From positions 1-46,922 of IMG/VR virus record IMGVR_UViG_3300021440_000037: DNA of 46,922 nucleotides; one strand, given 5' to 3'. The notes below the pieces were generated by a model. It was not told the origin of the DNA, made no database searches, and was given only the letters and a program-made list of their open reading frames with translations. The DNA is from a virus. The position numbers and the translations under genes are program-made. This document shows positions 20,148 through 32,598 of this stretch, in pieces (within the stretch, counting starts at the first letter, position 1; every line of letters begins with the position of its first letter).

Positions 20148-22139
20148 TCAATCCCTCACCGACGTGAACACCGGCCGGTTGGCTGCCTTATCGCGCGCAT
20201 TCCGAGCATCCCGCAATACCTCGTTACGCTCACCGGCCGGATTCCATTTCGGTGCACACTTAGCGCCAATCTGAGGAACGGCGCGATTGAGCGTCGGTCC
20301 CCACTGCTCAATGAGCATGGCCTCAAACCCACGTGCCTCAATGCAAGTCATCTCCCCTTCAAACAGCTTCACATAGTCAACAATGACATCACCCCAATAC
20401 TGACTTTCACGATGTTGATCGATCCTGTCACCAACCTCTTGATGCGTCTGCCCGACGTACCCGACACCATCCACGTTGGCGACGTAGATGCCATAAATCA
20501 CATGCTGCCGCACCACACAGTCATTGGCCTGAATATCGATCTCTCGGCCATCCCAAAACTTGCCCGTGGGTGCGCCTTTCGTGACCATCCACTTGAGCAC
20601 GTTTAAACGACTGTAGACCTTGGCACCCTCACTGTTGGTGCCTTCACTGTCCGGCCACTTGGCAAACCCTTGACTCTCTGGTGACCGCTCCCCAGACTGC
20701 CACTTGCGCAAAGTCGCGTACGGAACCGCATACCCATGCGCCTCAATGAACTTGCCAACCTCAGCCAAAGTCATCGTGACCGGTAGCTCAATGTCCACGC
20801 TGGCACGCTCGATACTCGGTCGGTTGCCACCCCCACCGATCGCGGTTACCCGCACGTCCGGCACCGACGCAATGCCATCGGACCATTCAATCTCAGCAAC
20901 ATTGGCGAGGTTCGCAATAAGCGCCGCGTCACTCTCTTGCAAGTGCGGCGGCAAGTACCGCACCACATCTGTCGACGTGACTAGGTACCAACTCCAATCC
21001 ATCGGGTGCGGAATGTACTTGTGGCCATGTCCAAGCATCTTCCACGTGCGCATGTCCCACTTGCTCATGAGCGCGGCATTGAAGTTCTCACGAACCGCAC
21101 CCCCGCCAAACACCGCAGCTTCCGCACGCTGCGCAATCACATGGATGTAAATCCCAAACTCACGACCCATGTAAACCGAGTAATGCATCGACCTAATGGC
21201 CGGACTGTGAACGGCAGCATCACCATGCGCTTTCTTGGCGTACTCCCAAAAGTCCTTGAGCATGGCCATAAGGGTATTGGCTTCCTCCATGATGACATGG
21301 AGCGGCGTAAACGTGATGCTACGTCCCGCAAGCCGTGCTTCGATGTCTGCCTTGCGGCGACGCTCCAATTCCTCAAACACCGCTTGAAAAGCATCATGGC
21401 ACGTCTGCGCCTCGCTGAAATACCGGATGTTGCGGAACTCAAGCGCCACAGCAAGATCGAGCATCGACACACCCTTAACATCAAGGATGATGACTTGACC
21501 TCCACTACGGATGTACTGAGGCACAAGGAACCGATACAGATTGGACTTACCGCCACCGCTACCCGCACTCGCTTTGATGTGCGGCCCCATCTTGACATGG
21601 TCATACGTGATTGGCTTGCCATCAAGGTCAAGCCCCAACAACACAATGTGCGGATTACCCTCGTTGGCCTCAATGTACGGCAAGTAATCGAACACCGTAC
21701 GTGCCTCACCAAAGCTCGGTGTTGGGAACACCTTGACTACCGCACCGTGCCCCACGTACCCCCATTGGCCGGTGACGCCACCCAACATCCCCAGACGATG
21801 CCCGATGTCCGCAACAATTTTGTCCTTGAGTTTGTCCTGACTTCCTGGACTCACGGGCAACCGAATCGTCACGCACGACTCAAGGTCACTGGCATCGATC
21901 GGAAACACTTTCGGCAGCTTGATATACCGCTCTGGCCGGTCACGCAGCATCATAGACACATTGCCCACAACACCGTTGTCAACCAACTGTCCGGACTTGG
22001 GCAAGTTATCGATCAAGATCTGTGCGGCCGGACGAATCCACACGTCACGACGCTTGGCACGGTGGGCAGCCTCAACCAACCCGCCACACGCAAGGCACAT
22101 GGCACCCAACACCGCAAGAACAATCACAACGATGGTCAT
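20148..22139 (-). CDS. FtsK/TraB-like DNA translocase fused to HTH and GIY-YIG nuclease domains
   Basis: 663 aa. Residues 1-22 form a membrane segment. The motor has Walker A GSGGGKS (193-199), Walker B VIILD (216-220) and FtsK-type FTPLHVIMEEAN (277-288). A MerR/excisionase-like HTH follows at about 456-518 (TLAEVGKFIEAHGY, YATLRKW, YSRLNVLKW). A GIY-YIG endonuclease domain lies at about 549-620: GIY 550-552, YVG 561-563, Arg572, Glu607 and Asn618. Actinobacterial TraB/FtsK proteins move double-stranded DNA and read 8-bp signals. This triple fusion with a nuclease is unusual. The partner gene next door encodes a membrane protein. Target DNA is unknown. It contains an in-frame GTTTAAAC at 20601. 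Confidence 0.85.
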   Translation of the reverse strand: MTIVVIVLAVLGAMCLACGGLVEAAHRAKRRDVWIRPAAQILIDNLPKSGQLVDNGVVGNVSMMLRDRPERYIKLPKVFPIDASDLESCVTIRLPVSPGSQDKLKDKIVADIGHRLGMLGGVTGQWGYVGHGAVVKVFPTPSFGEARTVFDYLPYIEANEGNPHIVLLGLDLDGKPITYDHVKMGPHIKASAGSGGGKSNLYRFLVPQYIRSGGQVIILDVKGVSMLDLAVALEFRNIRYFSEAQTCHDAFQAVFEELERRRKADIEARLAGRSITFTPLHVIMEEANTLMAMLKDFWEYAKKAHGDAAVHSPAIRSMHYSVYMGREFGIYIHVIAQRAEAAVFGGGAVRENFNAALMSKWDMRTWKMLGHGHKYIPHPMDWSWYLVTSTDVVRYLPPHLQESDAALIANLANVAEIEWSDGIASVPDVRVTAIGGGGNRPSIERASVDIELPVTMTLAEVGKFIEAHGYAVPYATLRKWQSGERSPESQGFAKWPDSEGTNSEGAKVYSRLNVLKWMVTKGAPTGKFWDGREIDIQANDCVVRQHVIYGIYVANVDGVGYVGQTHQEVGDRIDQHRESQYWGDVIVDYVKLFEGEMTCIEARGFEAMLIEQWGPTLNRAVPQIGAKCAPKWNPAGERNEVLRDARNARDKAANRPVFTSVRD

Positions 22140-22708
22140 CGTCCCAACCTTCCCTTAACCCATGTCTCGGCAGCAATCACGTACTCATACCACGGTGTAC
22201 CGTCGTCTCCCTTGCCCCTGAACTTGGCCCAAAGCGCAAGCCGCTTGACCCCGTACTTGACCCCGTAGACACTCACGACAGTGCCAACAAGGATCAACGG
22301 CAGCCAACCCCAATTGGCCCAACACCACGGCAACACGGACAGCCCTAGCCACCTCAACGCATGGCCGAACACCCGCAAGACATCGAGCTTGCTATCCCAT
22401 GACGAATACTTGAACCAAGCAAGTACCGTGAAGACCAACGACCAACGCCAAGCCATCACAATCCACTTGGGACCTTTGACAACCGGCTTGCCGCTCCAAA
22501 ACGCGTTGCGATGCGGTTTCTTTGCTGGCTTGGTGAACGTCGCGTTGACAAGCGGGTCACGGTGCGGGTTGTCACGCGCCAACGTCACAGTCATCCACTT
22601 GGTGAATCCTCGGATGACCTCAAACGGCGCGTGAATCCACAAGGGCAAGTGGAAAGCATCGGCTTTGAAGAGCGCTTGATCCTGTCGGAACTTCACGGTA
22701 CTTGGCAT
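22136..22708 (-). CDS. Membrane protein paired with FtsK-like translocase
   Basis: 190 aa, MPSTVKFRQD. Two or more hydrophobic segments (WIVMAWRWSLVFTVLAWF, LGLSVLPWCW and WLPLILVGTVVSVYGV) with a basic C-terminus. It overlaps the translocase start by 4 nt, so the two are co-translated. In actinobacterial conjugative elements a TraB/FtsK protein is commonly followed or preceded by small Spd membrane proteins, and the pair here looks similar. Homology was not established. Confidence 0.6.
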   Translation of the reverse strand: MPSTVKFRQDQALFKADAFHLPLWIHAPFEVIRGFTKWMTVTLARDNPHRDPLVNATFTKPAKKPHRNAFWSGKPVVKGPKWIVMAWRWSLVFTVLAWFKYSSWDSKLDVLRVFGHALRWLGLSVLPWCWANWGWLPLILVGTVVSVYGVKYGVKRLALWAKFRGKGDDGTPWYEYVIAAETWVKGRLGR

Positions 22709-22709
22709 G

Positions 22710-23270
22710 TCAGCTCACCAATTCCCGCAAGTGACCAAGCTCGATGCGCAACCGCTCACGCGCACCGTGCCGCTTGTCACTCCACACGCAACCGGGGTTG
22801 TACCCAAACTCAGCCTCAATCTCAGCATGGGTCTTGCCCTCATAGAAACGCATGAACACGTACTTACGTTGGTTCGGCGTGAGCGCGGCAAGAGCTTCCC
22901 CGATCTCTCCCTCGTGATAGGCGACATAGACAGACTCAACATCGTCCGTTGCCTCAAGGTCGGCCCACACGCTCTTTTCGATGCCAACCCCCTCACCCAC
23001 CACCGGCGCATGAGCCTCAATCTCAAAGTGCGTCTTCACGCCAGGATGCTTGAAGTCACGGAAGTGGATGAGCTGACTGATCATGCGGTTGCGGGCAGCT
23101 TTCAAGATGCGCCCCTGCTCAACCTCCCCCTTATCGAGCATCTTCCACACTTCGATGAATCCCTCTTGCGCAACATCCTCCCAACTCGTTGATGCGTTTA
23201 CACGCCGAATGCCTTTCGCCATGCGCTCGATCATCGGCCGGTAGTGCGCAAGCGCATCCTCGCTAACCAT
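22710..23270 (-). CDS. Phage sigma factor (sigma-70/ECF-like)
   Basis: 186 aa, MVSEDALAHY. Region 2-like N-terminus with TSWEDVAQEGFIEVWKMLDKG and NRMISQLIHFRDFK. Region 4-like HTH in ALTPNQRKYVFMRFYEGKTH and AEIEAEFGYNPGCVWS, ending in the usual basic helix (ARERLRIEL). It should redirect host RNA polymerase to phage promoters, probably the structural genes lying downstream in the same block. ATG 23270 is one base after a GTTTAAAC octamer; a GAGGGGG Shine-Dalgarno overlaps its left edge. Confidence 0.82.
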   Translation of the reverse strand: MVSEDALAHYRPMIERMAKGIRRVNASTSWEDVAQEGFIEVWKMLDKGEVEQGRILKAARNRMISQLIHFRDFKHPGVKTHFEIEAHAPVVGEGVGIEKSVWADLEATDDVESVYVAYHEGEIGEALAALTPNQRKYVFMRFYEGKTHAEIEAEFGYNPGCVWSDKRHGARERLRIELGHLRELVS

Positions 23271-23271
23271 C

Positions 23272-23279
23272 GTTTAAAC
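23272..23279. promoter_or_regulatory. GTTTAAAC at stop of upstream gene and start of sigma factor
   Basis: Minus strand reads GAGGGGG-TTTAAAC-G-ATG. The TAA inside the octamer stops the upstream 89-aa gene, and the sigma-factor ATG follows after one base. A protein bound here would sit exactly on the ribosome-binding site of a master regulator. Confidence 0.6.
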
Positions 23280-23543
23280 CCCCTCATCCGTGTACCGCAC
23301 CAAGAGCGCGGTTGCTGTCACAATCAGTGCTGTCAATGACTCTCGGGATGGTGCAAGCAACCACGCACTCACGTCCCGCTTGAGCATGTTGGTTGCTTGC
23401 ACCCACGACACCGTTTCGCCAACCGGTGTTGCCGACCAACCCCGCGTGCGTGACACGGTGGTCAACTCACGCTTGACCGTAAGCCCGATCTCATGCACAA
23501 CCTGAAAGATCGACCCGTTAGGCTTGATGCTCTCTCGTGCCAT
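23274..23543 (-). CDS. Small protein upstream of sigma factor, unknown
   Basis: 89 aa from ATG 23543 (MARESIKPNG), chosen because GAGGG precedes it; ATGs at 23564 and 23585 are possible. Contains WVQATNMLKRDVSAWLL and a C-terminal amphipathic or weakly hydrophobic helix (LTALIVTATALLVRYTDEGV). Its stop TAA is inside the GTTTAAAC octamer at 23272. Tight linkage to the sigma gene might suggest a partner or anti-sigma role, but there is no direct evidence. Confidence 0.5.
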   Translation of the reverse strand: MARESIKPNGSIFQVVHEIGLTVKRELTTVSRTRGWSATPVGETVSWVQATNMLKRDVSAWLLAPSRESLTALIVTATALLVRYTDEGV

Positions 23544-24018
23544 AATCCCGATACCCTCGCTCATGCTTGAACCACATTCCGACACACCACGCGTCTTGCT
23601 TGTGCCCGTTTAAACTTCCCCCGCGCGGTCCGGGTGTCCAATATGGTTGCTGTTGATGGTCGGCCCGTCCCATCCGGGTAAACCAACCCATGTGATAGAT
23701 CTTCTTGTGTTGGTGATTGAAGTACCCGATGGCAGGGACGTTGTACCGTCGTCCCAAGTGCCGCATCACCCCGATCATCTGGCTTGTCAACATCTGTGAG
23801 CCGTTCTGTTGGCTCGCACGTCGCAAGTCCAACGCGAACTTCTCATACACGATAGCGTGAATCTCAAGCGTCCGGATGCCATTCTCAAGATGATCGATGG
23901 CATCGTCAGGAAGAAACTCCGTGACGTTTAAACACTCACCCTCATGCCACATGGCAACGGCAGCGTGCACGTCACCGGGGTCAACGGAAGCCCAACGCTT
24001 AGGCAACTCAAGCGGCAT
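23518..24018 (-). CDS. RuvC-like (RNase H fold) protein, possible Holliday junction resolvase
   Basis: 166 aa from ATG 24018 (MPLELPKRWA). The N-terminus SVDPGDVHAAVAMW resembles the RuvC first strand with its catalytic Asp. IHAIVYEKFAL carries the acidic residue after strand four. HKQDAWCVGMWF near the end supplies a late acidic position. The order D...E...D suits a junction resolvase or related nuclease, useful for resolving replication intermediates. Two GTTTAAAC octamers (23608, 23926) lie in frame, both read as Leu-Asn with TTA. Confidence 0.68.
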   Translation of the reverse strand: MPLELPKRWASVDPGDVHAAVAMWHEGECLNVTEFLPDDAIDHLENGIRTLEIHAIVYEKFALDLRRASQQNGSQMLTSQMIGVMRHLGRRYNVPAIGYFNHQHKKIYHMGWFTRMGRADHQQQPYWTPGPRGGSLNGHKQDAWCVGMWFKHERGYRDYGTREHQA

Positions 24019-24226
24019 TGTCGTTCCCCTCAACGTAGTTCTTGGGACCATGCAGCTTGGCAAGATGGTTGTCTGTCCACCGAATCGCTTCACCGTGCGT
24101 GCCGACCGTGAGAAAGCCAATGTGGATAGGGCACACCGGGCAGCTTGCCCACCACGGCGCAAGGACAGCACCCTTGACCTCTGCCCAACCACGAATCTTG
24201 CCAATATTGATCTTGTTCTTGTTCAT
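24008..24226 (-). CDS. Small protein with CPxC motif, unknown
   Basis: 72 aa from ATG 24226 (MNKNKINIGK). Contains WWASCPVCPIHIGF, a single CxxC pair with a nearby His that could bind zinc, and a C-terminus HGPKNYVEGNDNAA. Start overlaps the previous stop as ATGA, and its end overlaps the RuvC-like start, so it belongs to the replication operon. Function unknown. Confidence 0.6.
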   Translation of the reverse strand: MNKNKINIGKIRGWAEVKGAVLAPWWASCPVCPIHIGFLTVGTHGEAIRWTDNHLAKLHGPKNYVEGNDNAA

Positions 24227-24342
24227 TGAAGCCACCCCACGACAAGCGTCGTGCCCAAAATGGACATGAGCATGACGCACAGCATCAAGAGCAGAAACCA
24301 CCGTCCACCCTCATCCGTGCTTGGCTCGTTGTCGTCACTCAT
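24223..24342 (-). CDS. 39-aa single-pass membrane protein
   Basis: ATG 24342 overlaps the polymerase stop (ATGA) and its TGA overlaps the next ATG (ATGA), so it is embedded in a coupled chain. Sequence starts MSDDNEPSTD, then one membrane segment (WFLLLMLCVMLMSILG, TTLVVGWLQ). The overlaps on both sides are the main evidence that it is real. Function unknown. Confidence 0.6.
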   Translation of the reverse strand: MSDDNEPSTDEGGRWFLLLMLCVMLMSILGTTLVVGWLQ

Positions 24343-26612
24343 GCCAACCGACCCCCATCGAACTTGAACGTTACGTGCATGTTCTTGTTGTGACCCTCAA
24401 AGATGCGCTTGCCCATGTCCTTGACGTACGCGCCAACTTCCTCGACAAGCTCATCGGGAATCTCAAGCCACACGCTGTCATGAACCTGATTGATCAACAT
24501 GCCCGGATACTTGTCCTCAATGGCAAGCATGAGTTCTGACATCTGCTCAGCCACGCTGCCCTGAACAATCGCGTTGAGAGCCTTGTATGTCCGCTCACCC
24601 CAACCGAACACGCGACGTCGACCCGAGATGAGCCGCACGTAACCGGGACCACCGGCAGCCACGTCAACCCGACGTTCGGCAATCTTGCTCGTGCGCTTGA
24701 TCTCAGGGTATGCCGCGTTCAGGGCATCCATGAATGCACGGATTTGACGCTCGGGAATGTCATCCTTGAGGTCATTGTCAATCTGACTCTTGAGCGTCCG
24801 GACGCCACTGGCATAGATCGTGCCAAAGATGCCGCGCTTCATTGACGTCCGTACCTTTTTCCAATCCGGGTGCTTGCTCAACACATAGATGGGGTCACCC
24901 TCATCGTTGACAGCCGCGCACGTCACGTCATCCGTGATACCGCCGTCACGAGCCTCAAACACGTCGTACGGCTGTCCGTCCGGCCATCCACCGGGCCACG
25001 TCTCGGCCAACTGTCGGCCGAACACGACAACGGTGTTGGCACTGTGGATGTTGACGCCACTGTTGATGACATCGGCTAGTTTCTGGCACTTGGTGAGCCG
25101 TGCCGTTTCCCGCACTTCCGCGTTGCTGGCGTCAAACTCCCACACTTGGTGACCGGGCTTGGGCTTGAACAGTTTCTTGATGCCCACAATGCCCGCTGGA
25201 ATGCGCCACGCTTGCGGAACACCCTGCAACTGAATACGGGTCGCGCTCAACCGGCCCGAGATGGCACCCCCGCTCTTCATGTCCTTACGGTCCGTCTCGA
25301 TGGCAAACTGAAAGAAGTTGGTGCGCAACCGGCCATCCTTGCCCGCACGGTGAGGCCAAGCCGTATACCACTTTGAACGGACGCTCTTCATGTTGGCGAT
25401 ATGCTGCCAAAGCTTGGCAACCTCACCGGCCTTGCCTTTTTCCTTGGTGAGCCGAGCAACCGTCTCAGCGTCACACGATGGCTTGCCACCGTCCGTAAGC
25501 TTGATGGGGATGATGCCGCAACCCCCATCCTCCGGCGCACCAAAGAAGTAGTTACCGGCAGCAATATTGGTGTCCTTGAACGGCAGCTCAGCAACCCGCT
25601 CATCAACCTCAACGGCCATCTTGTCATCCTGCTCACGGCAAAGGTCCACATCGAACCCAACACCGCGACGTTCCATGTTGAACAGGATGACGCACTTGCG
25701 ATGCTCACGGTTGATGATGGGCATGTCTTGAGCGTCGATCTCACCGGCCGCAATGATGCGGTCAACCTTGAGCTTGCCACGCAACGTAAGTTCGGCATCC
25801 TTCGCTGCGTACCGTCCGGCCACGTCCCACGACACAAGGTCATAGCGCTTGCCAAGACCAACCCCGTTGGCCTTTAGACCATCCTCAATGCCCCTGTCCT
25901 TGGTCACACCAAAGAACTTGCGGGACACGTGGTCAAGACTCGCCCGTTCGGCAGGCTCGCGCACACCCTCAACGATCATGAGATCGGTCCCGAGCTTGCC
26001 GCTCAGGTCGATCCCACTGTTTAAACACGTACCGGTCTCATCGGCTTGATGCTGCCACCCCACACAATCCGGCCCGCACGGGTTGGTGTCCCCATCGCGC
26101 AAGCCAGCAAGGGCAATCCACATGTCATACTTGGCATTGAAGTAGTCAACAACACGAATCTTGTTGCTACGCCACATGTCGCGCAGATCGACCCACCCCT
26201 GAACACCAAAGTTCCATGGCGCACAGACACACAACCAGCGAGTGAGGTCACACGCGTCTGAGTGCGGAAGGTATTGCCATCCGGTGGTGGGGTTGGCTTT
26301 GGTCGCTTTGGTGATGTACCGACCTTTCTTGCCACCCACCATGCCCTGATCAAACGGGATGGCGCACGACTTGAGAGCGTTGGTGTCCGTGTCGAGCCAC
26401 GACATGGCAGCGATGCTGAGCCGTGCCTCTGGCTCGCACTCATCGGCTTTGGTGGCCCAATTACCATCGACGTGCCTGCCGCTTGCCTCAAAGTCAAGGG
26501 CAATCTCTCCGTCGGCCGGACGCACGTTGTCGGCAAGCCACGCACCAAGTTCGGTGGCGGGGAGTTCCACAAACGACGGTTCCTGTCCGTCGTCAAACAT
26601 CAACTCAGGCAT
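24339..26612 (-). CDS. DNA polymerase I family (PolA-like) with 3'-5' exonuclease domain
   Basis: 757 aa. Exonuclease: DFEAS (40-44), YFNAKYDMWIAL (157-168), RYAAKDAELTL (267-277). Polymerase: GRLSATRIQLQGVP (453-466), motif A EFDASNAEVR (492-501), motif B KRGIFGTIYASG (592-603), motif C QVHDSV (709-714). Motif A has FDASNAEVR where bacterial enzymes have DYSQIELR, as in several phage polymerases. It replicates the phage genome together with the primase-helicase on the other strand. In-frame GTTTAAAC at 26019 (Cys-Leu-Asn). Confidence 0.93.
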   Translation of the reverse strand: MPELMFDDGQEPSFVELPATELGAWLADNVRPADGEIALDFEASGRHVDGNWATKADECEPEARLSIAAMSWLDTDTNALKSCAIPFDQGMVGGKKGRYITKATKANPTTGWQYLPHSDACDLTRWLCVCAPWNFGVQGWVDLRDMWRSNKIRVVDYFNAKYDMWIALAGLRDGDTNPCGPDCVGWQHQADETGTCLNSGIDLSGKLGTDLMIVEGVREPAERASLDHVSRKFFGVTKDRGIEDGLKANGVGLGKRYDLVSWDVAGRYAAKDAELTLRGKLKVDRIIAAGEIDAQDMPIINREHRKCVILFNMERRGVGFDVDLCREQDDKMAVEVDERVAELPFKDTNIAAGNYFFGAPEDGGCGIIPIKLTDGGKPSCDAETVARLTKEKGKAGEVAKLWQHIANMKSVRSKWYTAWPHRAGKDGRLRTNFFQFAIETDRKDMKSGGAISGRLSATRIQLQGVPQAWRIPAGIVGIKKLFKPKPGHQVWEFDASNAEVRETARLTKCQKLADVINSGVNIHSANTVVVFGRQLAETWPGGWPDGQPYDVFEARDGGITDDVTCAAVNDEGDPIYVLSKHPDWKKVRTSMKRGIFGTIYASGVRTLKSQIDNDLKDDIPERQIRAFMDALNAAYPEIKRTSKIAERRVDVAAGGPGYVRLISGRRRVFGWGERTYKALNAIVQGSVAEQMSELMLAIEDKYPGMLINQVHDSVWLEIPDELVEEVGAYVKDMGKRIFEGHNKNMHVTFKFDGGRLA

Positions 26613-26787
26613 TGGTGATCATGTCCGTTTCGGCTTGGGTGATGCGGAGTCTGTGAACAAGGTCAAGGTGGTGCGTGAACAACCGCAAGCCACCGAAGCT
26701 ATGCGCGAACGTGTGCTTTGCCCCCGAACAGTGACGACACACGATGCGTCGCTCAATGGTGGCGTTCGATGTGGTGAGGTCACTCAT
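26605..26787 (-). CDS. Small CxxC protein upstream of polymerase
   Basis: 60 aa from ATG 26787, overlapping the preceding stop (ATGAGTGA) and running 8 nt into the polymerase start. Contains ERRIVCRHCSGAKHTFAH, a CxxC plus His pattern suggesting half a zinc site, then a basic helical tail (LVHRLRITQAE). Coupled overlaps on both sides support it. Function unknown. Confidence 0.6.
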   Translation of the reverse strand: MSDLTTSNATIERRIVCRHCSGAKHTFAHSFGGLRLFTHHLDLVHRLRITQAETDMITNA

Positions 26788-27097
26788 CCCGCAACCCGCC
26801 GTTACCGTCGTCACCAAGACCAAGGTCTTTCATCATGGCAAAGGTGCGATCAACCATGATGTCCTTGTGCGCGTCTGCCACCACAACATCAAGGGCTTCC
26901 ACGATGGACCGAATCCACTTACGCCGCTCATCCTCGCTGTAACCGTCCGGCATGACAGCAAAGAACGGGATCATGCGCTCTTCCGGAACGTCGGCACGCT
27001 CACGCATGACACGCTGTCTGTGCTCAAGGTCGGCAGCACACGTCATGGCAAAGATGGCTGCCGCGCTCTCACGGGTCATCAACTCTTTGATTGTCAT
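26780..27097 (-). CDS. Hypothetical protein, replication operon
   Basis: 105 aa from ATG 27097 (MTIKELMTRE), a 4-nt ATGA overlap with the previous stop and GAAGG 10 nt upstream. Contains DVPEERMIPFFAVMPDGYSEDERRKW-type text split over two helices and an acidic C-terminus (GLGDDGNGG). No domain recognised. Second gene of the leftward block. Confidence 0.65.
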   Translation of the reverse strand: MTIKELMTRESAAAIFAMTCAADLEHRQRVMRERADVPEERMIPFFAVMPDGYSEDERRKWIRSIVEALDVVVADAHKDIMVDRTFAMMKDLGLGDDGNGGLRDE

Positions 27098-27378
27098 TCC
27101 GTTGGTGCCTTCCTCTTGATCCATACCTCTGCCTTCCATTCCTGATCATCAACGCCAACAACCTTGGTGTCGATGTTGTCGTGACGCGTCCGTATCTTGT
27201 GCGCTTGCACGTACGCCGATCCCTTACCGGCCGCGTGTCGGCTAACACGTGCCCAACCGTCTTTCGTGGTGGTCCACATGCCAACGTCGATACCCTGGCT
27301 AACACACTCGATGAGTCGTCTGGAATCAAGATTCCACAACAAGCTCTTGGCGTAGTCGCGGGTTGCTTTGGCTTCCAC
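27094..27378 (-). CDS. First gene of leftward block, unknown
   Basis: 94 aa from GTG 27378. A GTG at 27390 gives four more residues but lies almost on top of the AAAGGAGA Shine-Dalgarno. With 27378 the GTTTAAAC octamer (27381-27388) lies between Shine-Dalgarno and start, as in five other genes. Contains DGWARVSRHAAGKGSAYVQAH and DQEWKAEVWIKRK, a small alpha/beta pattern. Function unknown; next to the candidate origin. Confidence 0.6.
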   Translation of the reverse strand: MEAKATRDYAKSLLWNLDSRRLIECVSQGIDVGMWTTTKDGWARVSRHAAGKGSAYVQAHKIRTRHDNIDTKVVGVDDQEWKAEVWIKRKAPTE

Positions 27379-27448
27379 GTGTTTAAACACTCTCCTTTCT
27401 CATGTCATCCGGGGTGGCCGGATACTCAAGTTTACCGCACTAAGCACT

Positions 27449-27778
27449 CTCATACGCTCATACGGCACTACCGAAAATATGACCCCCCTTTTAGGCGTTA
27501 CGTGTCGAGCACCCACCCCCAAGAGAAAAAGCGTCGCGTATATAAAGAGTCTTCCCCAGAGCCGTATTTGCCGTATGAGCCGTATAACATGGCCTTGACC
27601 AGGGGTTTTGTAACTCCGCTTGGCGTATGAGAGCCCGTATGAGAACACTCCCTAGCCGTATGAGAAAGCCGAGTTTGACAACAGTGTCATTGAGTTTGCC
27701 ATCAAAAACAATTGCAGCAAGATTTTCGGACCATCCTAGGAAAGCTCATACGGCTCCTCATACGGCAGCTCATACGCC
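27449..27778. repeat. Iteron array CTCATACGGC / GCCGTATGAG
   Basis: Forward copies CTCATACG(GC) at 27449, 27457, 27745, 27757 and 27769. Reverse copies (GCCGTATGAG or CGTATGAG) at 27570, 27623, 27635 and 27655. Partial copies GCCGTAT at 27561 and 27579. The last three forward copies have a strict 12-bp period and the GCCGTAT trio a strict 9-bp period. The arrangement suggests cooperative binding by an initiator or regulator. Confidence 0.85.
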
Positions 27779-27785
27779 AGAAATC

Positions 27786-27814
27786 TTACCGAGGTGAAAG
27801 ACCCATGCTAGGCT
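27786..27814 (+). promoter_or_regulatory. Candidate promoter of rightward block
   Basis: TTACCG (27786-27791), 17-bp spacer, TAGGCT (27809-27814), 69 bp before the primase-helicase start. It resembles the CTGACA-17-TARTGT promoters further right only loosely. A GTTTAAAC (27856-27863) lies between it and the ribosome-binding site AGAGGGGA. Confidence 0.4.
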
Positions 27815-27882
27815 GAGGTTTCCGGCGAATAGCGCGGGGGATGACAGGAATAACCGTTTAAACAGCAAGAGGGGATGGGGTC

Positions 27883-30372
27883 ATGCCCCTTGTGGCACCT
27901 AGCAAGACAGCAAGCATGTTGACGTGGGCAAAATGGTGGGTAGCTCAGGGTTGGTTGGTTTTCCCGGTGTGCTCACCGGCCATGGGGTCACACCGTCACA
28001 ATGCCAAAGACGAACATGATTGTGATGAGTCCAACCGCGACTATGGCAAGCGTCCCATGGTCGGTAACGGGTTTCAGAACGCAACCGATGACATCTCTGT
28101 CATTGAGGGTTGGTGGGCACGTTGGCCGGACGCCAATGTCGCCGGTACGCCACCCGTCGATCAATTCGCGGTTGACATCGATGGTGAGACAGACATCGAT
28201 TTCCCTGCCACGTGGGAGCACACCACCGGCAAGGGTCGGCACTTGGTGTTTAAACAGAACCCCAACAATCTCATTGGGCAGGGACAGAGGGTATGGTCGA
28301 ACGTTGATACCCGTTTAAACGGCAAGGGTTACATCGTCTTGCCACCCTCGTTGCACGCGTCCGGCACCAAGTACACGCTTGCCGCGCAACGGCCAGTGTT
28401 GGTGTTCCCGAGCAACATCAAGCCGGTCAAGGCGACCAAGACCAAGACGACAAGGGCAGCGAAGAAAGCCGATGCCAACGATGACATGGTTGCCGTGTTG
28501 CTCAAGGCACCCGATGATCCGTCGGCCGGTGACGATGACATGATCAAGATTGCTGGCTACCTTGCTCGGTTCGTGCCGGACAAGGATGTCTATTGTGCTC
28601 TGTTGCATCGGGTCAACATGTACCTTGCGGACCCGCTCAGTGACAGCGCCATGGACAAGAAATTTAGCCAGTGGGAACGTCACCGTGACGTGGTGGAAGC
28701 CAAGGATGCCAAGCGGCTTGACGATGAGGCTCGTGGGTGGCTCTTCCCGCGTGAGGTGGGCGGCTACGATACCCCCATTGAGGCTCGTGACGGTACCGTG
28801 TCATACATGCCTGTCACTGACTTTACGATGACCGCTCGCGGTGTCGTGGTTTCCCCTAACTACGCACGTCGAATGTTCATCGTGGACATTACGCGCGCCG
28901 ATGGTGAGGTCATCCACGGTGCCAAGATTGACACTGACACCATGGTTGACAACCTTCGATTCAAGCGTTGGTTGGCGCGTCGTGGCTTGAGCACGTATGA
29001 CAACAGCCGTGACCCGCGCAAGGGTGCTCTTGGGCAACGCATGATCAAGATGCTTGAGTCACAAGACCCTGAGTTGTTGATGGCCCGTGACCACTATGGA
29101 TGGTGTCCAGAGAGTCAAGCCGTACTTACCACGCAAGGGGAAATCAGTGCCGACGGTTTGCGAGACTTTACGGCTGTATACCCGGACGACAAGCTACAGA
29201 CGGACGCGCCTACAGCATTTAGCTTTGATGCGGATTTGGCGCAAGCACGTGAATGGATGTCACGCCTGTTGGCGCTACAGCCTGAGCGGGAAGCGGCAAA
29301 GGTTGGCGCATGGGCAATGATGTTGATGCTGCGTGGACAGTGGACAGGGTTGATGCCGGGGTTGCTCGTGCAAGCGTCGGCCGGTACCGGCAAGACACGG
29401 TTCTTTCAGTTGCTCTTTAAGCTGCTGGGGTCCACGAACGACGGTGAGACGTTGACCGATGCGACGTTGCGAGACAAGCTCGTTGCAAACATCAACGGTG
29501 CGGTATGGCTCGATGACTGCCACCTCACCGAAAAGCAAGAAACCACGATGCGCACGGCGTTGACGGGTGGCAAGCAAACCCACAAGGTCACGGGCGGGGA
29601 CGGTTGGGAGACCGTTGAAAAGCTCATGCGCGCGTCAATCGTGGTGTCGGGTGAGGGTGTCGAGTGGTACCGGCAAAAGGCGTATCGAGACCGGTTCATT
29701 GACCTTGAGTTCACAAAGGACATCCGCACCAACGATGCCGACAAGCTAGTCATCGAAGATATCAACCGTGCGTCCGGGGTCTTGCTCATGTCGGTATTGC
29801 AGCACGCGGGCATGTTGAAAGAGCTTGAGTCGTTGCGCATGGGTGTTACCGAGCGAGATGAACAAGCGCGGGCCACGCTTCGCATCGGCGCACGCATCCT
29901 TGATGCTGTCCTTGGTACGGGTCACAAGTGGACCACGATCATTGACGATTGGTACCGGGGTACCGACACGCTAGGAACTAAGGGGCACGCATCGGAAGGT
30001 GTGTTGCACGTGTTCCCTCGCTTGTGGATGCGTGACAAACACCCGACGTCGGCCGGTCAAGGTGCGTTGCTCAAGGCGATTTGGTACGACCAAGTAAGCC
30101 GAACGTTTTGGATCAATACTTCGATGTGTGCCGACATGTGGAACCAAACACAACGGAACTTGTCCATGCGTGAGCAACAAATGACATCGAAAGATGCACT
30201 TGAGAAAGAGCTACGGGCGTGTGATTCTCCCGGCAGCAAGAACAAGTACGCATCATCGATGGGTGGTCGGCCCGGTAAGGGTGCGAAGTATTGGCAACTT
30301 CCGCAAGCGTACTCAGAGATGGTCATCGACCAAGCTAACTATGTGGATGGGGATGAGAACGAGGATGTCTGA
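27883..30372 (+). CDS. Primase-polymerase / helicase fusion (replicative)
   Basis: 829 aa, MPLVAPSKTA, with AGAGGGGATGGGG before the ATG. The N-terminal archaeo-eukaryotic-type prim-pol domain has AVDID (96-100, metal-binding Asp pair) and GKGRH (116-120). The C-terminal superfamily 3/DUF927-like helicase has Walker A ASAGTGKT (498-505) and Walker B VWLDD (541-545), followed by a DRFIDLEF sensor region. It should prime and unwind for the PolA-like enzyme. First gene of the rightward block, next to the iteron region. In-frame GTTTAAAC at 28248 (Phe-Lys) and 28313 (Leu-Asn). Confidence 0.88.
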   Translation: MPLVAPSKTASMLTWAKWWVAQGWLVFPVCSPAMGSHRHNAKDEHDCDESNRDYGKRPMVGNGFQNATDDISVIEGWWARWPDANVAGTPPVDQFAVDIDGETDIDFPATWEHTTGKGRHLVFKQNPNNLIGQGQRVWSNVDTRLNGKGYIVLPPSLHASGTKYTLAAQRPVLVFPSNIKPVKATKTKTTRAAKKADANDDMVAVLLKAPDDPSAGDDDMIKIAGYLARFVPDKDVYCALLHRVNMYLADPLSDSAMDKKFSQWERHRDVVEAKDAKRLDDEARGWLFPREVGGYDTPIEARDGTVSYMPVTDFTMTARGVVVSPNYARRMFIVDITRADGEVIHGAKIDTDTMVDNLRFKRWLARRGLSTYDNSRDPRKGALGQRMIKMLESQDPELLMARDHYGWCPESQAVLTTQGEISADGLRDFTAVYPDDKLQTDAPTAFSFDADLAQAREWMSRLLALQPEREAAKVGAWAMMLMLRGQWTGLMPGLLVQASAGTGKTRFFQLLFKLLGSTNDGETLTDATLRDKLVANINGAVWLDDCHLTEKQETTMRTALTGGKQTHKVTGGDGWETVEKLMRASIVVSGEGVEWYRQKAYRDRFIDLEFTKDIRTNDADKLVIEDINRASGVLLMSVLQHAGMLKELESLRMGVTERDEQARATLRIGARILDAVLGTGHKWTTIIDDWYRGTDTLGTKGHASEGVLHVFPRLWMRDKHPTSAGQGALLKAIWYDQVSRTFWINTSMCADMWNQTQRNLSMREQQMTSKDALEKELRACDSPGSKNKYASSMGGRPGKGAKYWQLPQAYSEMVIDQANYVDGDENEDV

Positions 30373-30478
30373 CACCGTTGACAACGTGCCGACCGATCTT
30401 GCGCGGCTCAAGGCTGCCCTGTTGGCTTCCGGTTGGGTGGTGACGGGTGCCACCCGGACGCGCCCGGTGTGCGTTTAA
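30365..30478 (+). CDS. Short protein ending in octamer; possible 5' half of a frameshifted gene
   Basis: 37 aa from ATG 30365, overlapping the helicase stop (ATGTCTGA). Starts MSDTVDNVPT and reads DLARLKAALLASGWVV before TAA 30476-30478, which is part of GTTTAAAC (30473-30480). The -1 frame continues openly for 67 codons (30469-30672) with sensible sequence. The two may be one gene with a frameshift, natural or sequencing-derived, or two coupled genes. Confidence 0.5.
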   Translation: MSDTVDNVPTDLARLKAALLASGWVVTGATRTRPVCV

Positions 30479-30672
30479 ACACCGCGTACACGTACCGGGA
30501 AGCCACGCTCAGCGTTGCCACCCTGCCGAACGTTGAGGAAGACAAGCCGGTGTGGCGCGTGGTGGCGTTCTACCGAGGTACCGACCCGATCATGTTTGCC
30601 CTTGAGCATGTCGTCAAAGTTGCCCCCAAACTTTTTGCGGGTTTGGCTGACAACCTCAACAACCCCGCGTAA
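30469..30672 (+). CDS. Small protein in -1 frame of preceding gene
   Basis: 67 aa if GTG 30469 is used; no good Shine-Dalgarno is visible, which favours the frameshift view. It contains AYTYREATLSVATLP, KPVWRVVAFYRGTDP and VVKVAPKLFAGLADN, an alpha/beta pattern. Joined to the 37-aa product it would make a roughly 100-aa protein. A promoter (-35 at 30647) lies in its last codons. Function unknown. Confidence 0.5.
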   Translation: MRLNTAYTYREATLSVATLPNVEEDKPVWRVVAFYRGTDPIMFALEHVVKVAPKLFAGLADNLNNPA

Positions 30673-30675
30673 TGT
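30647..30675 (+). promoter_or_regulatory. Promoter CTGACA-17-TAATGT
   Basis: -35 CTGACA at 30647-30652, exactly 17 bp, -10 TAATGT at 30670-30675, then TGTTCTTGCAAGGCC before the next gene. Same -35, spacing and initial sequence as the promoters at 35983 and 36671, which makes chance unlikely. Confidence 0.75.
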
Positions 30676-30718
30676 TGTTCTTGCAAGGCCAACCGGGCCT
30701 AACAAAACGGGGGTTGAC

Positions 30719-31210
30719 ATGAACGGCACGATCAACATGACGGCGGTTTCCGGCATCGTGGCGCGTGAGCTTGCCGCGTTCGCTGAGCGGGTCGGCACGG
30801 ACTGTGCCGGTAACAACGATGCTTCCGGTGAGGCTGTCCGCGCGCTCATGTTCCGCATCGGTGAGCATGTCGAGCGTGCCAGCAAGGCGGACATCGATGA
30901 GGTTGCGTACGACGTCGTTGACCGTGACATGCGGGGTTCCGACGTCGGCACCGTTCACAAGATCGCGGACATCAAGGAAGTTCGCACGATCACGCTGAGC
31001 GGACTCAAGGAAGCCAAGGATGCCGTTGAGTACGCCATCGGGCGCGTTCTGCGTGACCGGGCCAACGCGGCACTCACGGCGCTCCACGCGTACAACACCG
31101 GTGGCGACGGTTACCACAAGCCCGGTTACCGCCAGTACGTGAGCGCGATTGCTCACAACGACGTTCTCACGGACGTGTGGCAGGCTGCCAACACCACTCA
31201 GCCTTTCTGA
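30719..31210 (+). CDS. Protein with ribosomal L7/L12 C-terminal-like motif
   Basis: 163 aa from ATG 30719 (MNGTINMTAV), preceded by GGGGGTTGAC. Helical throughout. Residues reading KEVRTITLSGLKEAKDAVE closely resemble the L7/L12 C-terminal signature (VRxITGLGLKEAKDLVE), the part that contacts translation factors. This could be a short protein-interaction module. Whether it interacts with the translation machinery is speculative. Expressed from its own promoter. Confidence 0.6.
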   Translation: MNGTINMTAVSGIVARELAAFAERVGTDCAGNNDASGEAVRALMFRIGEHVERASKADIDEVAYDVVDRDMRGSDVGTVHKIADIKEVRTITLSGLKEAKDAVEYAIGRVLRDRANAALTALHAYNTGGDGYHKPGYRQYVSAIAHNDVLTDVWQAANTTQPF

Positions 31211-31258
31211 TCGGCTGAGCTACCGGGGTGCGGCGGGACACGCACAGTCCCTAGCTAC

Positions 31259-31328
31259 GGGGTGCGCCATGACGTTACTTACCCATGTGGGGTCGATGAG
31301 ACTGGCCATGAGCGCACCCCGTTTAAAC
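31259..31328. repeat. Inverted repeat abutting GTTTAAAC
   Basis: GGGGTGCG (31259-31266) and CGCACCCC (31313-31320) are perfect 8-bp arms with a 46-nt loop, and GTTTAAAC (31321-31328) follows with no spacer. It lies between two rightward genes and may be a terminator with an adjoining operator. Confidence 0.5.
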
Positions 31329-31346
31329 ACTCGTGAAAGGCTTGAC

Positions 31347-32072
31347 ATGAACCGCGACGATTTGCGCAAGGTTGCTGCCGAACTCAACATCACCGGACGG
31401 AGCAAGATGACCAAGGACGAACTCTCGGATGCCATCTTTGAGCACCCGAACAACCCGCTCACTGTCAACCGGCACGGTGACGTGACCGACCCGCGCGACA
31501 CAACCCCGCTCCCGACAACCCCCGACGGTGGGACCGTTGTTCAGGACAGCATCAATTACGCCGGGGTTGAGTTCCCCAGTGACGAGAGGCTATTCGCGAC
31601 CTTGAGTGTCGGCTACGGCGGCAACCCCGATGAGTTCCCGAGTGTCGAGAGTCAACACCGGATGATCGACCTTGCTGTGATGGGCAACAAGCGGGAGCGT
31701 CACGCCGCGCGCATGAGCAAGACCAAGACATCGGCTGTCAACAAGTTCACTGAGCGTCGGATCATCCGTGCCGTGCGCGCTGTCCAGAGTCGCACGTACA
31801 GCATGGCAACCGGTCGCGGTATGGGGGCCAAGCACTACGCCGCAATTCGCGGTATCGAGTATGCCCGGTACGGCGCTACGGACGCCACCAAGCCGCTTGC
31901 CTACGGTGACCGCGTGCGCCACTACGCCAAGCAGAACGGCGCGTTGCCGCGCACGGCCGACACATTCGACGGTGCCCTGTTGACGCACACTCAGTGGCGT
32001 CGGGCACAGCACAAGCAGAATAAGAACCGTGCGTACGGCACCAAGGCTGAGAGGTACCCGGCCGTAGCTTGA
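31347..32072 (+). CDS. Rho-N/SAP-like domain protein
   Basis: 241 aa from ATG 31347, with GAAAGG 7 nt upstream. Residues 2-35 (NRDDLRKVAAELNITG, MTKDELSDAIFEH) match the Rho N-terminal / SAP helix-extended-loop-helix that binds nucleic acid. The C-terminal half is strongly basic (RRAQHKQNKNRAYG). A nucleic-acid-binding role is likely. It is a possible candidate for the protein reading the octamers, but nothing in the sequence proves it. Confidence 0.65.
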   Translation: MNRDDLRKVAAELNITGRSKMTKDELSDAIFEHPNNPLTVNRHGDVTDPRDTTPLPTTPDGGTVVQDSINYAGVEFPSDERLFATLSVGYGGNPDEFPSVESQHRMIDLAVMGNKRERHAARMSKTKTSAVNKFTERRIIRAVRAVQSRTYSMATGRGMGAKHYAAIRGIEYARYGATDATKPLAYGDRVRHYAKQNGALPRTADTFDGALLTHTQWRRAQHKQNKNRAYGTKAERYPAVA

Positions 32073-32094
32073 TCCGGCATGGTACGATTTAAAA

Positions 32095-32598
32095 ATGCAA
32101 ACTCAAGCGTGCCGACGTGGGCACCCCCGGACACCGGAAAACACCTATCCGTCCGGGGGTTGCCGACCCTGCCAGCAACTACGTGATTCGGGAACGGCCA
32201 CAATCGACACTCGCAAGCCGGGTGACGGGCGCACTTGCAAGCTTGGGCATCTTGTCACGGGCGACAACTTACGGGTTGTCGTCAGTAACGGTGCCACTCG
32301 GTATGTTTGTATTACGTGCTACAAGATGCATCAAAAGAACAATGCGCTACGTGAAATGCGCAATTGTTATGCGGCGTACGGCAACCGATGCAAGTGTTGT
32401 GGTGAAACAAATGAATTGTTCCTAACGCTTGACCACGTAAATAACGATGGGCATGTTGATCGTAAAGTTGGTCTTGGTGGGTTGCCTATGTACCGAAAAG
32501 CTCGGATTGCCGGGTATCCGGATATCTATCAGTTGCTTTGCTTCAACTGTAATTGCGGCAGAGCACGTAACGGGGGGACGTGTCCGCATGAGTGTTGA
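32095..32598 (+). CDS. HNH endonuclease (endonuclease VII-like)
   Basis: 167 aa, MQTQACRRGH. Four CxxC pairs. The core CKCCGETNELFLTLDHVNND holds the HNH His/Asn, followed by LLCFNCNCGRARNGG. A second N-terminal zinc site uses CRRGH and CRPCQ. Its DNA is visibly richer in A/T and codons such as AAT, ATT and TTT than its neighbours, typical of a freestanding homing nuclease. TACGAT lies seven bases before ATG with almost no leader, so it may have a private leaderless promoter. Confidence 0.82.
   Translation: MQTQACRRGHPRTPENTYPSGGCRPCQQLRDSGTATIDTRKPGDGRTCKLGHLVTGDNLRVVVSNGATRYVCITCYKMHQKNNALREMRNCYAAYGNRCKCCGETNELFLTLDHVNNDGHVDRKVGLGGLPMYRKARIAGYPDIYQLLCFNCNCGRARNGGTCPHEC

Follow-up and report, generated by a model that had tools for sequence, protein, structure and literature searches.

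A probable replication origin built of inverted iteron arrays next to a PrimPol gene in an actinophage-like virus

The window, a virus record of 46,922 bases taken here as a whole, contains a divergent non-coding gap of 492 bp that is probably its replication origin, the iterons of the gap being the predicted binding sites of the adjoining PrimPol, which would read them via its C-terminal domain (a probability of about three in four). That the origin would be read by a PrimPol-Rep fusion is proposed because of the statistics of the array, its recurrence in relatives, the predicted fold of the protein and the co-variation of its C-terminal domain with the repeats. The features of the region are the following:

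27391–27882, no strand, 492 bp: divergent non-coding gap, proposed replication origin
27449–27466, + strand: iterons 1 and 2, CTCATACGCT and CTCATACGGC, 8 bp apart
27561–27588, − strand: iterons 3 to 5, one perfect copy between two degenerate ones, 9 bp apart
27622–27664, − strand: iterons 6 to 8, left of the AT-richer core, 12 and 21 bp apart
27665–27744, no strand: AT-richer spacer (59% AT), proposed unwinding element between inverted iteron arrays
27745–27778, + strand: iterons 9 to 11, right of the AT-richer core, 12 bp apart
24339–26612, − strand: DNA polymerase family A, polA (PF00476, 1.6e-25; PHROG 17, 7e-64)
26780–27139, − strand: second small gene of the polA operon, 119 aa, without family match
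27094–27390, − strand: first gene of the leftward polA operon, 98 aa, GTG start after AAAGGAGA, without Pfam or PHROG family match
27883–30372, + strand: PrimPol initiator, with an AEP primase, a Cch/SaPI Rep-like helicase and a C-terminal winged-helix-like domain (PF09250, 2.7e-21; PHROG 5177, 1.2e-56; AlphaFold2 model)

The preliminary description had counted nine to eleven iteron copies in 330 bp, and this count is borne out: the gap holds nine copies of the 8-mer CTCATACG, and eleven units that resemble CTCATACGGC with at most two mismatches lie within 27449–27778 (330 bp). Such clustering goes beyond Markov simulations of the record, the top count of any 8-mer per 350 bp being 2 to 4 in 100 simulations versus 9 observed. 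The iteron was also looked for elsewhere in the genome, as had been advised, and CTCATACG proved to be largely confined to the gap (9 of its 11 copies in the record, with both strands used); all five exact copies of CTCATACGGC in the record are inside it as well. A matrix made from nine iteron units scores all nine above every other position of the record, in an in-sample comparison. The strict 9-bp and 12-bp periods described earlier stand for most of the clusters (12 bp for 27745/27757/27769 and for 27622/27634; 9 bp for 27561/27570/27579, of which the middle one is perfect) but not for the pair at 27449/27457, whose spacing is 8 bp. From left to right, two + units (27449, 27457) are followed by three − units (27561, 27570, 27579), three further − units (27622, 27634, 27655), the spacer and three + units (27745, 27757, 27769), so that inverted iteron arrays face each other across the AT-richer core.

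The AT-rich patch that had been noticed is real but modest. The spacer 27665–27744 reaches 59% AT versus 42% for the whole record, and the 60 bp from 27675 reach 62%, a value found at three other places too, which together occupy ranks three to six of the record. Among the features of iteron-type origins, the gap shows a motif clustered beyond chance, an adjoining AT-rich region (modest) and an initiator gene next door. DnaA boxes are present in many iteron-type origins but not in all; a DnaA-box-like site, TTNTNCACA, was not found in the gap and, this feature being optional, the gap could still belong to the iteron-origin family. Folded as single-stranded DNA, the gap is somewhat stabler than shuffles (z −2.1), as is expected because the iterons are inverted, and an Rfam search of the window gave no match. 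The GC-skew minimum at 27790 was set aside as independent support for an origin, since it goes with the direction of the genes; at third codon positions, the + strand has a skew of −0.003 in the left − genes and of −0.018 in the right + genes, so the arms do not differ, and the GC-skew minimum lies inside the gap in none of nine other phage records. The 11-mer CCATCCTAGGA has three exact copies, one at 27731 in the AT-richer spacer and two at 35900 and 35926 in the other large non-coding region, which was read by eye at 35.76–36.05 kb, and is probably a shared regulatory element.

Replication genes lie on both sides of the gap, in agreement with what had been read from the sequence: a DNA polymerase I family protein is encoded leftward and a Prim-Pol/helicase rightward. 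An overlapping open reading frame with a TTG start (27091–27630, +) was judged spurious because the − gene at 27094–27390 has a GTG with AAAGGAGA ahead. The product of this small gene, the first of the polA operon, was a candidate iteron binder but was rejected, as no conserved column was found when it was aligned with the same-place genes of relatives and as its positional equivalent in Korraviruses shows no association with repeat type. Further to the left, the gene at 22710–23270 (−) codes for a protein with regions 2 and 4 of the sigma-70 family, which may be a sigma factor of the phage itself; beyond the PrimPol gene, 30515–31210 (+) and 31149–32072 (+) give short weak matches to the ribosomal L7/L12 C-terminal and Rho N-terminal domains. 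The record is also rich in a palindrome, GTTTAAAC, with 31 copies in the window versus 0.35 expected from base composition (for example at 27381, 27856, 28248 and 28313), some of which border the iteron gap on both sides. This palindrome accounts for 31 of the 34 TTTAAA, its flanks have no longer consensus, and each of the other loci compared has at most one copy; we take it to resemble a highly iterated palindrome of the HIP1 kind. A second palindrome, CATCGATG, is present in 12 copies versus 0.65 expected.

According to its AlphaFold2 model (43 aligned sequences, mean pLDDT 84.6), the PrimPol joins a pRN1-like primase to the complete initiator-helicase fold of SaPI Rep and SCCmec Cch, this predicted fold including the C-terminal domain. 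Foldseek places SCCmec Cch (5dgk) and SaPIbov1 Rep (8tch) at the top, ahead of AsfvPrimPol, the SaPI5 primase-helicase and NrS-1. With VIA-align, residues 280–823 of the model match Cch (Z 20.5, rmsd 5.3, 458 residues aligned) and residues 282–816 match SaPIbov1 Rep (Z 17.5, rmsd 6.5, 443 residues aligned), the next row being that of MCM proteins (Z 13.4), while residues 9–186 match pRN1 ORF904 (Z 11.8). ORF904 is also the only match of a profile search of PDB sequences with the PrimPol (3.4e-9). Residues D98, D100 and D142, which we take to be the acidic motifs of the Prim-Pol catalytic domain, are invariant or nearly so. Alignment A3 comprises 42 of the 44 full-length loci, L094 and L102 being left out, and A4 comprises 35 of the 44. 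The C-terminal region 698–829 (pLDDT 88.2) is modelled as a helix, two strands, three helices, two strands and a helix. Folded alone, this domain gives weak VIA matches (best Z 5.2), nearly all to winged-helix proteins, and a Foldseek search with it alone returned no match at E≤0.001.

By tblastn (E≤1e-5), a related PrimPol is present in 168 phage records, of which 105 are from Arthrobacter phages, and every match stays below 60% identity; close relatives of the window PrimPol were not found in viral contigs, nor did a megablast of 22000–36200 find any among phages. Ahead of polA, or of the genes that lead up to it, there is a gap without coding sequence in Archimedes, Ghobes, Olihed, Goodman, Crosby, Galactica, Parvaparticeps, Wayne and Pumancara. 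When the local clustering of each 6-mer was scored relative to its own count elsewhere in the same record, the top cluster of the record lay in the pre-polA gap in nine of ten actinophage records with both genes (the window and eight of the nine relatives; for Crosby and Galactica, of 54 and 81 kb, the scan covered 50 kb), that of Pumancara ranking third. With 7-mers, the top cluster falls in the pre-polA gap in 7/10 records and the gap comes second in Archimedes, Olihed and Pumancara. The repeated words differ between phages (GTAACA in Galactica, GCTAGA in Goodman, GTCACA in Parvaparticeps, GTTACA in Wayne, TGTGAA in Ghobes), and in the Gordonia phages Archimedes and Ghobes the array precedes polA yet lies kilobases from the PrimPol gene. 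The pattern is absent from the enterobacterial phages KLB29 and Opt-148, which have a short Prim-Pol match only and whose tested gaps were chosen by us. Five IMG/VR contigs with two nearby perfect iterons were set aside as unrelated, because 13 window proteins gave no tblastn relatives there and because, in L007 and L010, the pair ends a long open frame.

The recurrence extends to IMG/VR, where an alignment of ten PrimPols led to 75 loci, reduced to 51, of which 46 have 1 kb after the PrimPol stop. The top 6-mer cluster lies within −150 to +900 bp of this stop in 30 of these 46 eligible non-redundant loci, versus 4.0 expected, and is not in the tested place in the other 16, which include Gordonia phages whose PrimPol and polA are apart. 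The array is downstream of the PrimPol gene in 30/46 relatives, versus upstream in the window record. A logP below −9 is reached by 30 loci but by none of 230 Markov nulls; the cluster falls within −150 to +900 bp in 26 of these 30 loci, with copies on both strands in 24 of the 26, near polA in L030 and L049, and elsewhere in L069 and L095. As the −150 to +900 interval was set after viewing the data, the loci of a later scan serve as an out-of-sample check: 13 new loci, seven of them redundant or ineligible (less than 1 kb after the stop, or no stop), give six eligible non-redundant groups, five of which show the pattern. A scan of genome contigs with A3 gave one locus out of 56 candidates.

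The link between the repeats and the C-terminal domain comes from Korraviruses, whose gaps align and whose repeats switch together between TGTAAC (type A, as in Wayne) and TGTTAC (type T, as in Kittykat): 477 of 537 within-phage site pairs agree in type, versus 308.5 expected (26 loci; one place counted on both strands). These 26 Arthrobacter phages comprise 15 of type A, in which the mixed L047, L057 and L144 were placed by us, and 11 of type T. Among 1,210 variable columns in eight of 15 proteins (the other seven had too few sequences), only columns 764 and 837 of the PrimPol separate the types; no column does so in the seven others, which include the small gene and polA. Column 175 of purA, a gene cut in 12 added loci, separated the types with 14 phages but no longer with 24. 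PrimPol 721–865 tracks the repeat type (p=0.003 in each block, the lowest value that 300 shuffles can give), whereas 1–720 does not, except for 241–300 (p=0.027, uncorrected), and neither the small gene (p=0.80) nor polA (p=0.26) is associated with it. In L041, the body of the protein is close to that of the A-type L046 (4 differences in 1–700), the C-terminus is close to that of the T-type L052 (4 differences in 716–865), and the repeats are T-type. Column 837 holds V in 15/15 A-type phages and L, M or T in 11/11 T-type phages; by alignment, it corresponds approximately to residue 790 of the window protein, just past the strand that follows the presumed recognition helix (770–779).

Fourfold-degenerate sites of PrimPol codons 721–865 correlate with the type too, as does the left third of the gap (p=0.002 each), so that a recombination block, or linked inheritance, explains part of the association. 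A C-terminal tree that omits columns 764, 837 and 838 requires at least three changes of type, and the body tree at least five; at least three switches go beyond linkage, though linkage contributes. The proposed reading of the iterons by the C-terminal domain is supported by the co-variation in 26 Korravirus loci, to which linkage contributes. In L045 and other Korravirus loci, the first repeat sits at the PrimPol stop codon, and whether the PrimPol ends in an S at column 865 or lacks that residue goes with repeat type in every phage but one.

In plasmid and lambda iteron origins, clustered iterons adjoin an AT-rich region and the initiator gene. The window shares this layout of clustered iterons, AT-richer region and adjoining initiator gene, but its predicted initiator has an AAA+ helicase fold with a primase, and its gap has no detected DnaA-like box. 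According to PMC7581432, SaPI Rep and Cch2 bind iterons adjacent to their genes through the C-terminal domain, and priming by the SCCmec primase can begin at these sites. The window resembles the SaPI Rep/SaPI origin (SaPIbov1 Rep, PDB 8tch) and SCCmec Cch/Cch2 in combining an initiator helicase that has a C-terminal DNA-binding domain (here predicted) with short iterons beside its own gene, and the fold matches these proteins from the helicase to the C-terminus over 443–458 residues. It differs from them by the AEP primase fused to the N-terminus, by its carriers, which are actinophage-like tailed phages, and by an array that also flanks polA and is located upstream of the initiator gene in the window record instead of directly downstream. 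On the preferred reading, the window system would work like the SaPI origin-initiator pair, minus the downstream position and plus a fused primase. An N-terminal Prim-Pol domain fused to a helicase is also found in pRN1 ORF904 and in the NrS-1 PrimPol. However, NrS-1 relies on two copies, one per strand, of an 8-nt motif in mid-genome (PMC7102993 and PMC8718748), and this unrelated 8-mer, TTTGGTTA, has 0 copies in the window; the NrS-1 helicase region also fits the window model worse than Cch and Rep do. Finally, actinophage stoperators and start-associated repeats are, according to PMC7302621 and PMC5559632, short non-coding repeats spread over many intergenic places, unlike the window iteron, which is confined to one gap (9/11 CTCATACG).

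This confinement bears on the possibility that the gap is a divergent promoter/operator, whose iterons would bind a phage regulator of the polA operon (left) and of the PrimPol operon (right) while replication starts elsewhere. A divergent gap should indeed hold the promoters of both operons, CCATCCTAGGA is common to this gap and the other large non-coding region, and the phage encodes a sigma-70-like protein. Operators alone, which the preliminary description had named as a finding that would speak against an origin, nevertheless fit less well: the iteron is absent from other gene starts, no sigma-70-like promoter was found in the gap (a weak test), the array of most relatives follows the PrimPol gene, between co-directional genes, and has copies in both orientations, and the repeat type tracks the C-terminal domain of the PrimPol but no column of seven other proteins. 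Such an explanation appears quite improbable, although the gap may also serve as a promoter or operator besides being an origin.

Two other explanations have to be weighed as well, both of which seem unlikely. The iterons could be single-stranded template sequences where the primase domain starts primers, instead of double-stranded sites, since the NrS-1 polymerase depends on an 8-nt template motif and the SCCmec primase, according to PMC7581432, also primes at its iterons. Nine to eleven copies spaced by 8–12 bp on both strands would better suit a multimeric binder of double-stranded DNA, however, and it is the C-terminal domain that tracks the type, PrimPol 1–240 being without association (241–300 gives an uncorrected p=0.027); the window also lacks the NrS-1 motif. 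Both kinds of recognition could coexist at the iterons. It is similarly doubtful that physical linkage is the sole cause of the association between repeat type and the PrimPol C-terminus, a recombination block carrying the gene end together with the gap and the repeats being bound by another phage protein or a host protein. The synonymous sites of codons 721–865 and the left part of the gap do track the type, but column 837 separates the types despite at least three type changes on a C-terminal tree built without it, the small gene directly across the gap shows no association, and the gap of the window has no DnaA-box-like site.

A replication origin read by the PrimPol thus remains the preferred reading, and the probable origin of the preliminary description is supported, at the level of sequence comparison, by the position of the gap, iterons on both strands, the AT-richer core, an initiator-type helicase and recurrence in relatives. 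From these data, we infer binding, melting, self-loading, priming and bidirectional replication along the following lines. The winged-helix-like C-terminal domain of the PrimPol would read the iterons, and copies of the protein would assemble on the oppositely oriented arrays at 27622–27664 (left) and 27745–27778 (right). Once assembled, they would open the AT-richer core between these arrays, load themselves as helicases, needing no other loader, and prime the two strands. The phage DNA polymerase I encoded by the divergent operon would then extend the primers.

Searches of open PMC papers yielded no description of such arrays, and none was found in passages of PMC5513430, PMC7302621 and PMC5559632. 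We lean slightly towards the view that many phages with both a PrimPol and polA share an undescribed class of origin, in which a single protein would be reader, helicase and primase, and in which a lineage-specific iteron word would co-evolve with the C-terminal reader, repeat and reader having been swapped as one unit. In Korravirus numbering, residue 837 would then belong to a readable code by which the fourth base of TGT(A/T)AC is recognised.

To our knowledge, origins of replication have been established for only a minority of environmental and actinobacterial phages. If the proposed reading is true, the origin of a whole phage group would become readable from sequence, and the Korraviruses of Arthrobacter sp. 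ATCC 21022 would constitute natural domain swaps for initiator-iteron recognition. A primase, helicase and reader carried by one chain could seed minimal, orthogonal replicons, and phage PrimPols would be tied to the self-loading helicases of SaPI and SCC elements.
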